A stretch of 46,073 nt of DNA from Nodosilinea sp. LEGE 07298. GTDB lineage: Bacteria; Cyanobacteriota; Cyanobacteriia; Phormidesmidales; Phormidesmidaceae. This document shows positions 36,443 to 46,073 of this stretch, in pieces. Positions within the stretch are counted from its first letter, which is position 1; every line of letters begins with the position of its first letter. Both the position numbers and the translations under genes were made by a program. A model generated the notes under the pieces. That model was not told where the DNA came from, searched no databases, and saw nothing but the letters and a program-made list of their open reading frames with translations. Location of the stretch: assembly GCF_015207265.1 (NCBI RefSeq), contig NZ_JADEXE010000014.1, forward strand, positions 1 through 46,073. The letters are read 5' to 3'.

Positions 36443-37504
36443 GTGAGCCTATATGCTGAACTACACCGCCACCTGGGCGGTTCAGTGGTGCCGAGAGTGC
36501 TGTGGCGTTATTTTGAGCGCAACCGCCCCGATCTCTCGGGCCAGTTTGTCGATTACCCTGCGTTTGAGCAATTTTATACCCGCCCCCGCAACACCCTGGC
36601 GGAGTACCTAGAGCTTCATACCTTGGTAGAGAGTGTGCAAACCCATGAAGCACTGCCCTACTTTATCTATCGCCTGATTCGCGGGGCGTATATCTTTGAA
36701 AACCTGGCTTACTTGGAGCTGCGCTATACCCCTTACCTGCGCACGCCCGAACATCTGGCTCAGAACCAGCGGATTGAAGCGATGGCTAACATTGTAGAGA
36801 TTGTGGGTCAGGCTAGTCACCAGCCCGAGTACCCGATTGTGACCAAGCAAATTCTCTGTATGCACTCGCGGCTGCCCTACGAGGTGAATCGGGCCATTGT
36901 CGAGCTGGCGGGCCAGTATCCCGAGTACGTGTGCGCCGTGGATGTGGCTGGTGGTGATGCTAACTACGGCGATCGCATTGATGAATTTACTCAGCTCTAC
37001 CAGCGTGCTCAAGACCTGGGCCTCAAGACTACTGGCCACCTCTACGAAACCGTAGATGGCAATCACCCGCAGCTGTTGCCTTACCTGATGCGTATTGGTC
37101 ACGGCATTCAAATTCCTCTGCGGCACCCTGAGCTGCTCAGTGAGGTAGCGGCGCGCGGCCAGTGCCTGGAGGTGTGCCCTACCACTTATCTCAAAACCGG
37201 CACCCTAGACGAAATTCACCAGCTCAAGGTCGTCTTCGATCGCTGCTTTGAGGCCGGGGTCGACATCGCCATTTGCACCGACAACGCCGGGCTGCACAAT
37301 GTGCGGCTGCCCTTCGAGTACGAAAGCCTGCTTACCCACGATGTCATTGGCTTTGAGGAACTACAGGCCTGCCAGGAAGCCGCTTTTCGCCATGCCTTTG
37401 CCTGGCCGCACAGTCTGCCCCCCGCCACCTTGCTGACGGATATACTGCAACTGCCAAGTCAGGCCCATCCTGTAGATAGCGAAGGGATGTTAGCGCTGTC
37501 TTAG
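36443..37504 (+). CDS. adenosine deaminase family protein
   Basis: 353-aa amidohydrolase-fold protein of the ADA/AMP deaminase family. Metal ligands appear as LHRHLGG (His8, His10), GHGI and CTDNAG (Asp280). The catalytic Glu is in GHLYET (His199, Glu202), the same spacing as H-A-G-E of classical ADA. The usual T-D-D is T-D-N here, and surrounding blocks differ from textbook ADA, so the substrate may not be adenosine; related subgroups act on adenine or other aminopurines. The start is GTG 36443 after GGCGGAGG. Its position opposite purA supports a role in purine balance. Confidence 0.8.
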   Translation: MSLYAELHRHLGGSVVPRVLWRYFERNRPDLSGQFVDYPAFEQFYTRPRNTLAEYLELHTLVESVQTHEALPYFIYRLIRGAYIFENLAYLELRYTPYLRTPEHLAQNQRIEAMANIVEIVGQASHQPEYPIVTKQILCMHSRLPYEVNRAIVELAGQYPEYVCAVDVAGGDANYGDRIDEFTQLYQRAQDLGLKTTGHLYETVDGNHPQLLPYLMRIGHGIQIPLRHPELLSEVAARGQCLEVCPTTYLKTGTLDEIHQLKVVFDRCFEAGVDIAICTDNAGLHNVRLPFEYESLLTHDVIGFEELQACQEAAFRHAFAWPHSLPPATLLTDILQLPSQAHPVDSEGMLALS

Positions 37505-41460: not shown

Positions 41461-42993
41461 ATGGAAATTCTTTTTGTGGCAGCGGAGGCAGCGCCCCTGG
41501 CCAAGGTCGGCGGCATGGGCGATGTAGTAGGTTCACTGCCTAAGGTGCTGCGCAAGATGGGGCATGATGTGCGCATCTTTATGCCCTACTACGGCTTTTT
41601 GCCCGACAAGGTCGATACCCCGATCCCAGCAGAGCCCGTGTGGCAGGGGACCGCCATGTTCAACGACTTTGCGGTGTACGAGACCACCCTGCCCGACTCT
41701 GACGTACCGGTGTACCTATTTGGCCACCCCGCCTTTGACCCCCGCAAGGTCTACGGCGGCGACGACGAGGCCTGGCGGTTTACCTTTTTTGCCAACGGCG
41801 CGGCGGAGTTTGCCTGGAACTACTGGAAGCCCCAGATCATGCACTGTCACGACTGGCACACCGGCATGATCCCGGTGTGGATGAATCAGTCGCCTGACAT
41901 TAAAACAGTATTTACCATTCACAACCTGGCCTACCAGGGGCCGTGGCGGTGGGAGCTAGAGCGCATTACCTGGTGCCCGTGGTACATGCAGGGGCACAAC
42001 ACGATGGCGGCGGCGGTGCAGTTTGCCGATCGCGTCAATACGGTGTCGCCCACCTACGCTGAGCAGATCAAGACCCCTGACTACGGCGAAGAGCTGGAGG
42101 GGCTGCTGTCGTTTATTAGTGGCAAGCTGGGCGGCATTCTCAACGGCATTGATGTCGAGTCTTACGACCCGGCCACCGATCGGTACATCAGCAAAACGTT
42201 TACTCCCGACAGCTTAGAAAATCGACGCATCAACAAGGTAGCGATTCAGGAAGAACTCGGGCTAGAGGTGAATTCAAAGGCCTTTTTGGTCGGGCTGGTA
42301 GGCCGTCTGGTCGAGCAGAAGGGGCTAGATCTGATTCTGCAAATTTTGGATCGGTTTCTCTCGTACACCGACGCGCAGTTTATTTTGCTGGGTACGGGCG
42401 ATCGCTACTACGAAACCCAGCTTTGGCAGATGGCGAGCCGCTACCGGGGCCGAATGGCCACCTACCTGCTCTATAGCGAGGGGCTGGGTCGCCGCATCTA
42501 CGCCGGGGCCGACGCATTTTTGATGCCGTCGCGGTTTGAACCCTGCGGTATCAGCCAGATGATCGCCATGCGCTACGGCTGTATTCCGGTGGTGCGGCGC
42601 ACAGGTGGCCTAGTAGATACGGTGCAGCACCATGACCCCGAGCACCACGCTGGCACGGGCTACTGCTTTGACCGCTACGAGCCGCTCGATCTGTTCACCT
42701 GCCTAATTCGCGCCTGGGAGGGCTATCGCTTTAAGGATGCCTGGCGGGCACTGCAGCAGCGGGCCATGGAGCAAGATTTTAGCTGGGACAAATCGGCGGT
42801 TGATTACGTCAAGCTCTATAGCGAAATGCTGGGGCTCGACTACCAAGAGCAGCTGGCTACAGCCAAGCCCACTCTAGCGACAGAATCCTCCACCCCAGGT
42901 GCCGCTGCGACAGAATCCTCAGTAGCCGGGCCAGTGGCTCAAGCTACCGCCACGCTTGACTCGTCCCTGCCTCAGTCCTCAACGCCCAAATAG
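41461..42993 (+). CDS. glgA: glycogen synthase (ADP-glucose)
   Basis: 510-aa GT5-family glycosyltransferase that extends alpha-1,4-glucan from ADP-glucose, the carbon-storage route of cyanobacteria. The ADP-glucose binding KVGG is at residues 15-18 in [15 protein letters not shown]. Other marks are [48 protein letters not shown] and the acceptor-site [13 protein letters not shown]-x-x-M-RYG. The sequence resembles the second cyanobacterial isoform (GlgA2) in its [15 protein letters not shown] region; that subtype call is tentative. The last ~45 residues are a Ser/Thr/Ala-rich tail with no fold. Start is ATG 41461. Confidence 0.96.
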
Positions 42994-43400
42994 TTTGAAG
43001 ATTAAGGTCATTGCTTGAAAAGAACGTTTCCGCACTGGGCAAACGAGTGTGTAGCCTCTAGCCTTGCTGCGCTAACACCCTGTGATACTGAACCCGCCTT
43101 GGCTAGCCCTGGTTATACCAAATCCGAGTTCAAAACCCTCGGATCAAAGCAGGTATGCCGTAGGGGCAAACGGTTGTTTGCCCTTAACCAATCGAGGGTA
43201 GACAACTAGGATTTGCCCTGACAACAAGCTGATTCAGCTGGGATACGCTTGGGTAAAAACTACTTCAGAAAATTACCTCAGAGATAGGAGGAAGACGAGA
43301 GAGATAAGACAGTGCTGTCAGTTACTGTTGTCTGTCATTTATGAGCTATTCGTGGTGAGGGAATGTGGCACATTAGTAGTTCCTGTTACGCGAGGCAGCT
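42994..43400. other. 407-bp gap between glgA and the URC1-like gene
   Basis: No supported protein gene; a 64-codon frame at 43015-43209 looks random. It contains the third copy of the palindromic repeat (43160-43188) and the dyad GACAGTGCTGTC (43308-43319), 82-93 bp before the URC1-like start. GAGG stands 6 bases before the ATG at 43401. Confidence 0.5.
43160..43188. repeat. palindromic interspersed repeat, copy 3
   Basis: GTAGGGGCAAAC (43160-43171), loop GGTT, then GTTTGCCCTTAAC (43176-43188). The arms pair over 8 perfect and 3 further bases. The GTAGGGGC...GCCC-TTA frame is shared with the copies at 17691 and 37519, with a different central sequence. It is intergenic, 167 bp after glgA. 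Confidence 0.7.
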
Positions 43401-44714
43401 ATGAGCGAGGGTAACGGTTCGGCAGCGGGACATGTGGCTCCTTTGGGGAAGCCCTTTGACAAGACAGACGCCCCTAAGCGTCGCCACATTGTGCTCACAT
43501 CTCACCCCAGTCGGTCGGGCCTGAAGGGTGCTCCAGTGTTATGGGGAAATGGCGATCCCCTCCAGCGGGGGGCGATCGTGGCCACGGTAACTGATCCCAG
43601 CCACCGCAACGCCATTGGCACCCACTCGGGTTCCTACGCGGTGTATCGTGCCCTGGCAGTGGCCAGCGGCGTGCTCCAGGCCGACCATCGGCCTGACTTT
43701 ACCAATACCTCGCCAACGATCGCGATCGGCCCCCACCCCAGCTGGGCTGATCCTGAGAAAATTGTCTCTTTGGATCCGTTTGGGGCATTAGTAGGAGATG
43801 TGTATGAGTCTCTGCTGGCTGAAGGCATTGATATTCGCCCCACGATCGCCGTTACCCGCGCCCACATTCAAATGCCAGAGCTGCTAGAGGCCGTGCGCCA
43901 GGGTCGGATTAAAGAAGATGGTGCGATCGTCAAACCCGGCGGCGACCTGGTAGTTACGAAGGCTGCTGTAGAGCCAGTGTGGTATTTGCCGGGGGTGGCT
44001 CAGCGCCTGGGGGTGAGCGAAGACGACCTGCGCTATGCCCTGTTTGAGCAGACCGGCGGCATGTTCCCTGAGCTGGTGACTCGGTTTGATGTGAAGGTGT
44101 TTTTGCCCCCGATTGGTGGCATTACGGTGTACATCGTGGGGGATCTGGCCGCCGTTACCGACCCCGATCGCCCGCTAGCGGTGCGCGTCCACGACGAGTG
44201 CAACGGCTCTGACGTTTTTGGATCCGATATTTGCACCTGTCGCCCCTACCTGGTGCAAGGTTTGGAAGAATGTATCGCCACGGCTCAGCAGGGTGGGGCT
44301 GGCGTTATTGTCTACTTCCGCAAGGAGGGTCGGGCGCTGGGAGAAGTGACCAAGTTTTTGGTATACAACGCCCGCAAGCGCCAGGAGGGGGGCGATCGCG
44401 CCGACGCCTACTTTGCCCGCACTGAGTGTGTCGCTGGCGTGCAGGACGTGCGCTTTCAGGAGCTGATGCCCGATGTGCTGCACTGGCTGGGCATTACCCG
44501 CATCGATCGGTTTGTGTCGATGAGCGATATGAAGTACAACGCCATTGTGCGATCGGGAATTGAGATTGTGGAGCGGGTGCCGATCCCCGACGACTTGGTG
44601 CCGCCCGATGCGCGGGTGGAGATCGAGGCGAAGAAGGCGGCGGGCTACTACACCGATACAGTAGCTCCTAGCCAGGAGGATTTGGCCCAAGTGCAGGGGC
44701 GGGGTTTGGAGTAG
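43401..44714 (+). CDS. GTP cyclohydrolase II-like protein of the URC1/Urg1 type (uracil catabolism)
   Basis: 437-aa homolog of RibA that matches the fungal URC1/urg1 group, proteins required for an alternative pyrimidine degradation route. Zinc ligands follow the C-x10-C-x-C rule of GTP cyclohydrolase II (Cys267, Cys278, Cys280, in HDECNGSDVFG..). The RibA sequence EGRGIGL is replaced by EGRALGEVTK, and the RibA N-N-P-K-K region by MSDMKYNAIVRSGIEIVERV, as in URC1 proteins. The N-terminal ~200 residues are an extra domain (HPSRSGLKGAPVLWGNGDP). A DUF1688 gene starts 2 bp after the stop, which makes the URC assignment much stronger. It is unlikely to serve riboflavin synthesis. Confidence 0.88.
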   Translation: MSEGNGSAAGHVAPLGKPFDKTDAPKRRHIVLTSHPSRSGLKGAPVLWGNGDPLQRGAIVATVTDPSHRNAIGTHSGSYAVYRALAVASGVLQADHRPDFTNTSPTIAIGPHPSWADPEKIVSLDPFGALVGDVYESLLAEGIDIRPTIAVTRAHIQMPELLEAVRQGRIKEDGAIVKPGGDLVVTKAAVEPVWYLPGVAQRLGVSEDDLRYALFEQTGGMFPELVTRFDVKVFLPPIGGITVYIVGDLAAVTDPDRPLAVRVHDECNGSDVFGSDICTCRPYLVQGLEECIATAQQGGAGVIVYFRKEGRALGEVTKFLVYNARKRQEGGDRADAYFARTECVAGVQDVRFQELMPDVLHWLGITRIDRFVSMSDMKYNAIVRSGIEIVERVPIPDDLVPPDARVEIEAKKAAGYYTDTVAPSQEDLAQVQGRGLE

Positions 44715-44716
44715 GG

Positions 44717-45982
44717 ATGGTGTCTTTAGGCGGAGATGGGGTGGTGGGCGGTGCCCGCCCTACGGAGTTTGTGGCTTACCTGCAAAGTCCGCAGGCGATT
44801 CGCGATCGCAGCCGCGCCCTTTTTGCTTTGGCCGAGCAGGATCAGCTCCAGCACTTTCGCTACTATCCCGAAGCTTTGCCTGCCGCTGCCGATTATGTCC
44901 TGGCGGTGATGCGGCAGCAGTACCCCAATGGCGATGTGCCGTTTCACTCCCGCTGGCGGCACTTTGAGGTGGGGGGGCGATCGCGCTTAGACTTGATGGA
45001 GCCAGCGCTGTCAACCTTGGATCCGCTGGAGCAGGCGCGGCTGAAGGTAGATTTGGCCATTACCAGCGTGCTGCTAGATGCGGGGGCGGGGAGTCAGTGG
45101 CGGTACGTGGAACCGGAAACGGAGCTGGAGTTTGCCAGATCGGAAGGGTTGGCGATCGCCAGCTTCCACGCCTTTACGTCCGGCCTATTTTCCAGTCAAC
45201 CCAATCAGCCCTGGCAGGCGGATGCGATCGGTCTCACCCGGCTCACCCCAGAACAGCTCGGGCACGCTTTTCAGATCAGTAACGACAATCCTCTATTGGG
45301 CCTTGAAGGACGGGTGGCGCTGCTGCAAAAGCTGGGCCAAGCCCTACAACAGAAGCCTTTATTGTTTGGGACAAATTATCCTAGACCAGGGAATTTAGTG
45401 AATTACTGGTTACAACAGGCTCCTGATCGTCAGCTGTCAGCAGTGACAATTTTGCAAACTATCCTCCAGGGCCTCGGCCCCATCTGGCCAGGGCGAGTGG
45501 AGCTGGCAGGCACCAACCTGGGCGATGTGTGGCCTCATACCCAACTGCCTGAAACCAGCCCCGGCAGCAGCCTAATCCCCTTCCACAAGCTCTCCCAGTG
45601 GCTGACCTACTCGCTGTTGGAACCCCTACAAGACCTGGGCCTCACTATTACCGATCTCGACCAGCTCACTGGTTTGGCCGAATACCGCAACGGCGGCCTG
45701 TTCATAGACTGCGGCGTGCTGAGACTGAAGGATCCGGCGGCCGTTGCGATCGCCCATCCCCCTAGCTCCCCTTTGATTGTTGAATGGCGTGCCCTCACCC
45801 TGTGTTTGTTGGATGACCTCGCGGCAGAGATTCGCCAAAGCTTGGGCATGAATGCCGAAACCCTGCCTCTCGTGAAGATTCTCCAGGGCGGCACCTGGAC
45901 GGCGGGCCGTCAGATCGCCGCCGAGAAACGAGCAGGTGGCGGCCCACCGATTCAGCTGGCTAGCGATGGCACCGTGTTTTAG
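44717..45982 (+). CDS. DUF1688 family protein (URC4/Urg3 type)
   Basis: 421-aa homolog of fungal URC4/urg3, required with URC1 for growth on uracil as nitrogen source; its chemistry is unsettled. Family blocks are FHSRWRHFEVGGRSRLD, LDAGAGSQWRYVEPE, FARSEGLAIASFHAFTSGLFSS, the central RPGNLVNYW and YRNGGLFIDCGVL. ATG 44717 lies 2 bp after the URC1-like stop, so the two are translated from one message and probably coupled. The window ends 91 bp later; the expected third partner, a uracil phosphoribosyltransferase, cannot be seen here. Confidence 0.88.
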   Translation: MVSLGGDGVVGGARPTEFVAYLQSPQAIRDRSRALFALAEQDQLQHFRYYPEALPAAADYVLAVMRQQYPNGDVPFHSRWRHFEVGGRSRLDLMEPALSTLDPLEQARLKVDLAITSVLLDAGAGSQWRYVEPETELEFARSEGLAIASFHAFTSGLFSSQPNQPWQADAIGLTRLTPEQLGHAFQISNDNPLLGLEGRVALLQKLGQALQQKPLLFGTNYPRPGNLVNYWLQQAPDRQLSAVTILQTILQGLGPIWPGRVELAGTNLGDVWPHTQLPETSPGSSLIPFHKLSQWLTYSLLEPLQDLGLTITDLDQLTGLAEYRNGGLFIDCGVLRLKDPAAVAIAHPPSSPLIVEWRALTLCLLDDLAAEIRQSLGMNAETLPLVKILQGGTWTAGRQIAAEKRAGGGPPIQLASDGTVF

Positions 45983-46073
45983 ACCGGTGAGGAGATCAGA
46001 AACTCTGGCAGCATCCAGGAACCTTTGAATACCTAAAAACCGTTGGATTTCCCCTTCCCATTCATCTTTACTC

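Follow-up and report, generated by a model that had tools for sequence, protein, structure and literature searches.

The window, by which we mean the whole stretch of DNA that was analysed, is 46,073 bases long and represents an entire contig (C107) of the genome. Two adjoining open reading frames, both on the plus strand and separated by 2 bp from stop to start, are located near its right-hand end at 43401-44714 and 44717-45982, exactly as the original prediction had placed them, and the EGRALGEV and MSDMKYNAI signatures ascribed to the first protein were both found in it. The first gene, designated urc1 (urcA), encodes 437 amino acids and is predicted to specify a UTP cyclohydrolase that opens the uracil ring of UTP; the second, designated urc4, encodes a DUF1688 protein of 421 amino acids, which is predicted to be a Qng1-like N-glycosylase acting on ribosylurea (phosphate). 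When the window was compared with the corresponding locus of a genome of the same genus (G269, locus L045), substitutions at codon positions 1, 2, and 3 numbered 18, 11, and 132 in urc1 and 72, 39, and 167 in urc4, a pattern typical of coding sequences under purifying selection. The gene upstream of the pair (41461-42993) is one that we take, from reading the sequence, to be the glycogen synthase gene glgA. The final 91 bases on the plus strand (45983-46073) are intergenic, and comparison of contigs indicated that the contig end severs the operon here, ahead of upp. Farther upstream, the window encodes an adenosine-deaminase-like protein (36443-37504; 119.8 bits against TIGR01430, below the cut-off of 216.55), a near-identical copy of which is present at the matching place in L045.

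The first protein was compared with protein family models, with the Protein Data Bank (PDB), and with its relatives in a phylogenetic tree. Pfam matches were obtained to GTP_CH_N (277.1 bits) and GTP_cyclohydro2 (63.4 bits); the score against NCBIfam NF005536 was 736.7 bits (cut-off 403), and that against the RibA model TIGR00505 was 57.8 bits, below the cut-off of 205.85. A phmmer search of the PDB returned 7eev and 7ej3 at E 1.1e-178, the top RibBA match being at 5.8e-11, and the protein was 64% identical over almost its whole length to these two entries, which are titled 'Structure of UTP cyclohydrolase' and 'UTP cyclohydrolase'. The same entries were retrieved by Foldseek (7ej3/7eev, E 6.4e-50) with a weak model of URC1 (mean pLDDT 66.1), which was used solely for reading the titles of the matched PDB entries, the sequence match being independent of the model. 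The UTP cyclohydrolase of 7EEV and 7EJ3 is reportedly the work of Zhang and colleagues in 2021, a study cited in PMC12507026. One further relative is encoded in the genome, a RibBA on contig C240 that scored 255.7 bits against TIGR00505 and thus exceeded its cut-off. In a maximum-likelihood tree, 20 URC1 and 17 RibBA sequences were placed on the two sides of one branch with support of 100/100, and the same 100/100 split was obtained with 8 of the 17 RibBA sequences. Residues C267, C278, and C280 were invariant among 39 cyanobacterial URC1 sequences, and the region in which they lie is presumably that of the RibA zinc site. By family, the protein is URC1, a UTP cyclohydrolase with predicted activity, and not RibA; it shares the GTP_cyclohydro2 domain with the GTP cyclohydrolase II of RibA/RibBA as a distant relative, but lies on the other side of the tree and scores under the RibA cut-off. 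The earlier description of this protein as RibA-like but not a true RibA was thereby upheld, and the phylogeny, named in advance as the check that could place it inside true RibA, came out against such a placement. The accompanying warning that such a paralog is easily mis-annotated was also justified: NCBIfam itself names family NF005536 'GTP cyclohydrolase II', and the PDB molecule names read likewise.

The second protein matched the Pfam DUF1688 profile (PF07958) over its full length (positions 1-420 of 420) with 517.6 bits against a cut-off of 25, which agrees with the identity first proposed for it. An AlphaFold2 model built from 49 DUF1688 sequences had a mean pLDDT of 91.9, and when this model was compared with the PDB using Foldseek, 11 chains were matched at E <=0.001, all of them the queuine salvage enzyme DUF2419 (best E 2.4e-9), and the first match after the DUF2419 chains was at E 0.23. 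VIA-align superposed the model on seven DUF2419 entries with Z scores of 26.4-27.2 over 308-323 residues, followed by helix-hairpin-helix (HhH) DNA glycosylases, with Pa-AGOG leading at Z 10.9. Identity to the DUF2419 structures was 15-20% across the two comparisons, and 16-20% for the seven VIA-align entries. At the level of sequence profiles, the window protein scored 15.9 bits against Q_salvage (PF10343), below the cut-off of 25; weak Q_salvage matches with E up to 1 were obtained for 31 of 49 DUF1688 members (best 3.6e-4), and hmmsearch of the PDB with the profile of the 49 sequences gave no chain at E 10. A Q_salvage search of 388 genomes of the class gave no match, the controls being equally silent, so that this is no proof of absence. 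On the evidence of the model, URC4 is a distant fold relative of the queuosine-5'-phosphate N-glycosylase Qng1 (DUF2419) and not a member of that family: it has the fold in common over 308-323 residues but is about 100 residues longer and is expected to have a different substrate.

DUF2419 proteins free queuine from queuosine and have a fold related to that of DNA glycosylases, according to excerpts of PMC9406330 and PMC4425180, and an excerpt of PMC7530994 states that URC4 of Lachancea kluyveri turns ribosylurea into urea. Two lines of evidence meet here, in that the Qng1 fold breaks N-ribosyl bonds and that the reaction stated for URC4 releases urea from ribosylurea; URC4 is therefore predicted from its model to cleave ribosylurea (phosphate) to urea by glycosylase chemistry. 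Residues K199 and D231 of Qng1 are mutated in PDB entries according to their titles. An excerpt of PMC11592518 gives D298 and W302 as active-site residues of Qng1 and names 7U91 as the Sphaerobacter enzyme, from which the entries bearing the K199 and D231 mutations would likewise be Sphaerobacter Qng1. Successive spacings of K199, D231, D298, and W302 in Qng1 are 32, 67, and 4, and those of K291, E322, Q390, and W394 in URC4 are 31, 68, and 4, and the two sets may thus correspond to each other, by spacing and not by alignment. K291, E322, and W394 were invariant in 49 cyanobacterial and 27 mixed sequences, and position 390 was Q or E in the sequences shown. Among the matches listed in one open-licence literature collection, no paper joining DUF1688 to Qng1 was found.

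Continuation of the operon beyond the contig end was assessed by contig synteny. When contig C43 of the same genome is reversed, its first 25 bases lead up to the ATG of upp, and from there on it is collinear with locus L045 of the same genus, in which the gene order is urc4, upp, and then a gene that we take, again from reading the sequence, to be glgP. The upp protein of L045 exceeded the TIGR01091 cut-off for uracil phosphoribosyltransferase. By the synteny of C107 and C43, upp is the next gene after urc4 in this genome, and the suggestion that upp would lie just downstream was thus borne out, in relatives as well. Because the nearest solved relative of URC1 acts on UTP and not on uracil, upp would be the entry enzyme of the route and not an optional partner. 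DUF1688 was matched in 134 other genomes of the class, and sixty stretches around such genes were fetched; URC1 was on the same stretch as URC4 in 50 of the 60 and was missing from the stretch in 10, and upp was present in 40. In 19 of 20 same-genus stretches, URC1 lay ahead of URC4 in the same orientation with no more than 152 bp between them, and in the remaining one the gap was 749 bp. In 13 of these 20, upp followed; of the other seven, four stop no more than 135 bp past URC4, and upp was absent downstream in the three that have more than 9 kb there.

Distribution of the two genes was surveyed in the 388 genomes of the class, 132 of which had both genes, 14 URC1 alone, and 3 DUF1688 alone (DUF1688 in 135 genomes; NF005536 over cut-off in 146). 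The three genomes with DUF1688 alone are G123, whose locus (L108) has stops in both urc1 and urc4, and G220 and G267, where DUF1688 was partly matched. For the 14 with URC1 alone, URC1 is at a contig edge in three (G335, G350, G122) and others are incomplete genomes; in G043, URC1 without URC4 looks genuine. Five of the 14, all of one family (G062, G177, G230, G244, G330), had a lower-scoring URC1, with stops in G062 and G330, and at the three corresponding loci L105, L106, and L107 (G177, G244, and G062) the diverged URC1 was 59-61% identical, with no URC4 on the stretch or in the genome; in these five genomes, URC1 seems to have decayed once URC4 had been lost. The best 80 loci by URC1 were taken from a survey of named genomes; 65 had URC4 together with URC1, and 51 of these also had upp. 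The closest URC1 loci among the matches listed were from Tildeniella, Phormidium, and Leptolyngbya. Both genes were present in 15 of the 16 loci without a cyanobacterial title (Myxococcus, Corallococcus, Azospirillum, Planctomycetota, and others), and in the sixteenth the contig ends beside URC1. In Microcoleus and Tychonema, a protein of about 360 amino acids is encoded directly after urc1 and, on stretches that include urc4, ahead of that gene (L161, 2054-3136); its cluster occurs in 7 loci, including L164, L165, L166, L169, and L184, and an adenylate/guanylate cyclase domain was identified in the copy at L161.

Regions upstream of urc1 were searched for GTAN8TAC, which we take to be the NtcA consensus. 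It was found in 18 of 85 cyanobacterial 300-bp upstream regions (95 before near copies were collapsed, from the part of the fetched loci that entered the count), against a mean of 3.3 after shuffling, and was followed 20-24 bases on by a -10 box in 8 of the 85, against a mean of 0.38; none of 200 dinucleotide shuffles of the same regions reached 18 or 8. These shuffles superseded an earlier control against random locus stretches (6/49 versus 292/9800). An NtcA-type site was located within 400 bases of urc1 in 21 of 24 loci chosen as Nostocales-like by title, these being related genomes whose sites are not independent and of which at least one, Stenomitos L140, is probably not Nostocales. Such sites fit a role in nitrogen scavenging, and as putative NtcA sites they hint at nitrogen control of urc1 in Nostocales. 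In the window itself, the NtcA-consensus-like GTAGTTCCTGTTAC (43376-43389, plus strand) is probably a chance match and was rejected as evidence: 5 matches of this type were seen in the window and 4.45 expected, it was exact in 3 of 14 genus sequences, and it is without a spaced -10 box. Alignment of 14 upstream regions of the genus showed a block, TGTCTGTCAC..GTGAGC, about 70 bases before the urc1 start, which forms an imperfect inverted repeat and is kept with variation in all 14 although the preceding stretch diverges. In the window, TGTCTGTCATTTATGAGC (43329-43346, plus strand) is part of this block; it is unique in the window and is a possible regulatory site. No sigma-70 promoter or terminator was found in a scan of 42980-43420.

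Genes for the flanking steps were sought in the genome and at other loci. Urease alpha was found on contig C7 (192.7 bits), in answer to the suggestion that urea hydrolases be looked for elsewhere in the genome; it is present in 327 of the 388 genomes of the class and in 126 of the 135 with DUF1688, and since urease is common anyway, its co-occurrence is weakly informative. RutA (TIGR03612), of the Rut pathway, gave no match in this genome; 7 of 14 control genomes were matched, 2 of them over cut-off. In 10 of the 16 non-cyanobacterial loci, urc1 is directly preceded, in the same orientation, by a gene for a protein of about 500 amino acids; a Pfam scan of one of these proteins identified an aldehyde dehydrogenase, and three of three tested passed the cut-off of TIGR01722, the CoA-acylating methylmalonate-semialdehyde dehydrogenase. 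This neighbour fits malonic semialdehyde as the three-carbon product of URC1. Five distant matches to methylmalonate-semialdehyde dehydrogenase, none over cut-off, were obtained in the present genome, where the three-carbon unit may be reduced to 3-hydroxypropionate or go elsewhere; an excerpt of PMC7530994 gives 3-hydroxypropionate and ribosylurea as the products of URC1/URC6 in L. kluyveri. In Nostocales-type loci, three further gene clusters recur in the vicinity of urc1, upstream and on the opposite strand in the loci shown: one for a TPR protein was seen in 23 loci, one for an NMT1/THI5-like binding protein in 16, and one for a binding-protein-dependent permease in 6. A PnrA-like binding protein is encoded near urc1 in other loci. 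Genes of this set lie at L139 6113-7177, L137 4368-5198, L143 7239-7796, and L141 4961-6100, and the set is a source of candidate pyrimidine uptake systems.

Taken together, urc1-urc4-upp is best read as a URC-type pyrimidine catabolic operon of a filamentous cyanobacterium, a predicted function to which we assign a probability of roughly 0.8. Uracil, taken up or derived from RNA turnover, would be converted to UMP by Upp and then to UTP by ordinary kinases. URC1 would hydrolyse the uracil ring of UTP. The fragment made up of C4, C5, and C6 would be released, with malonic semialdehyde as its most likely form, and the urea portion would stay attached to the ribose as a ribosylurea that is presumably still phosphorylated. 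URC4, with its Qng1/HhH-glycosylase fold, would then cut the N-glycosidic bond to give free urea, which urease would convert to ammonia, and the purpose of the route would be nitrogen scavenging.

Alternative readings were weighed against this scheme. The database names of the first protein, and its three invariant cysteines in the region of the RibA zinc site, would suit a genuine GTP cyclohydrolase II of riboflavin synthesis, but we consider this extremely improbable, given the separation of URC1 from RibBA in both trees, a RibA score under the cut-off in a genome with a separate RibBA, and the close identity to structures titled UTP cyclohydrolase. URC4 might instead have retained the Qng1 fold for another role, such as finishing the hydrolysis of the ring or working alongside URC1 as its partner. 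The low identity to Qng1 and the invariant Glu322, onto which Asp231 of Qng1 would map by spacing, are in favour of such a role; against it, the conversion of ribosylurea to urea (PMC7530994, in excerpt) is an N-glycosidic cleavage, the very reaction of the matched fold, and a URC4 that is not a glycosylase is therefore judged unlikely.

A somewhat less improbable alternative, which is still doubtful, keeps the same chemistry and assigns it to control of the UTP pool or to recycling of endogenous pyrimidine nucleotides, and not to the use of external uracil as a nitrogen source. The substrate would then be the cell's own UTP, no transporter-like open reading frame was present among those read by eye between 41461 and 45982, and NtcA-type sites were found in just 18 of the 85 upstream regions. 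Such a role is opposed by the coupling to upp, which encodes a uracil-salvage enzyme, by the presence, close to urc1 in several loci of Nostocales, of transporter genes of the NMT1/THI5 or PnrA type, and by the very occurrence of NtcA-type sites upstream of urc1.

The catabolic operon that we favour resembles the URC pathway of L. kluyveri (URC1, URC4, URC6), in which the same RibA-like URC1, the DUF1688 protein URC4, and a uracil phosphoribosyltransferase occur together, and in which urea is, according to the excerpt of PMC7530994, the nitrogen-bearing product, as is proposed here; by comparison with the yeast, the genes here form a compact bacterial operon, and urease was found. The URC-type pair that had been claimed for this locus stands, as both protein identities hold and both the upp partner and urease alpha were located. 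In fission yeast, the counterpart of the URC1/URC4 pair is presumably urg1/urg3. No paper joining the URC route to cyanobacteria was found among the matches listed in one open-licence literature collection. The pathway and the UTP cyclohydrolase structure are already known and the membership of these proteins is not new; the reaction of URC4 is a testable prediction. It is probable that DUF1688/URC4 constitutes a catalytic branch of the HhH-glycosylase-like Qng1 superfamily that acts on a ring-opened pyrimidine nucleotide, ribosylurea 5'-phosphate, in a route that would be under the nitrogen regulator NtcA in heterocystous cyanobacteria. If this is true, the salvage of a tRNA micronutrient and the salvage of uracil nitrogen would go back to a single ancestral nucleotide glycosylase. 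DUF1688 gains a fold and a predicted reaction that can be checked by one enzyme assay. The alternative route of uracil degradation known from yeasts would be widespread in cyanobacteria, with both core genes in 132 of 388 genomes of the class, masked by the name GTP cyclohydrolase II, and the URC operon suggests that filamentous cyanobacteria have access to the nitrogen of uracil.
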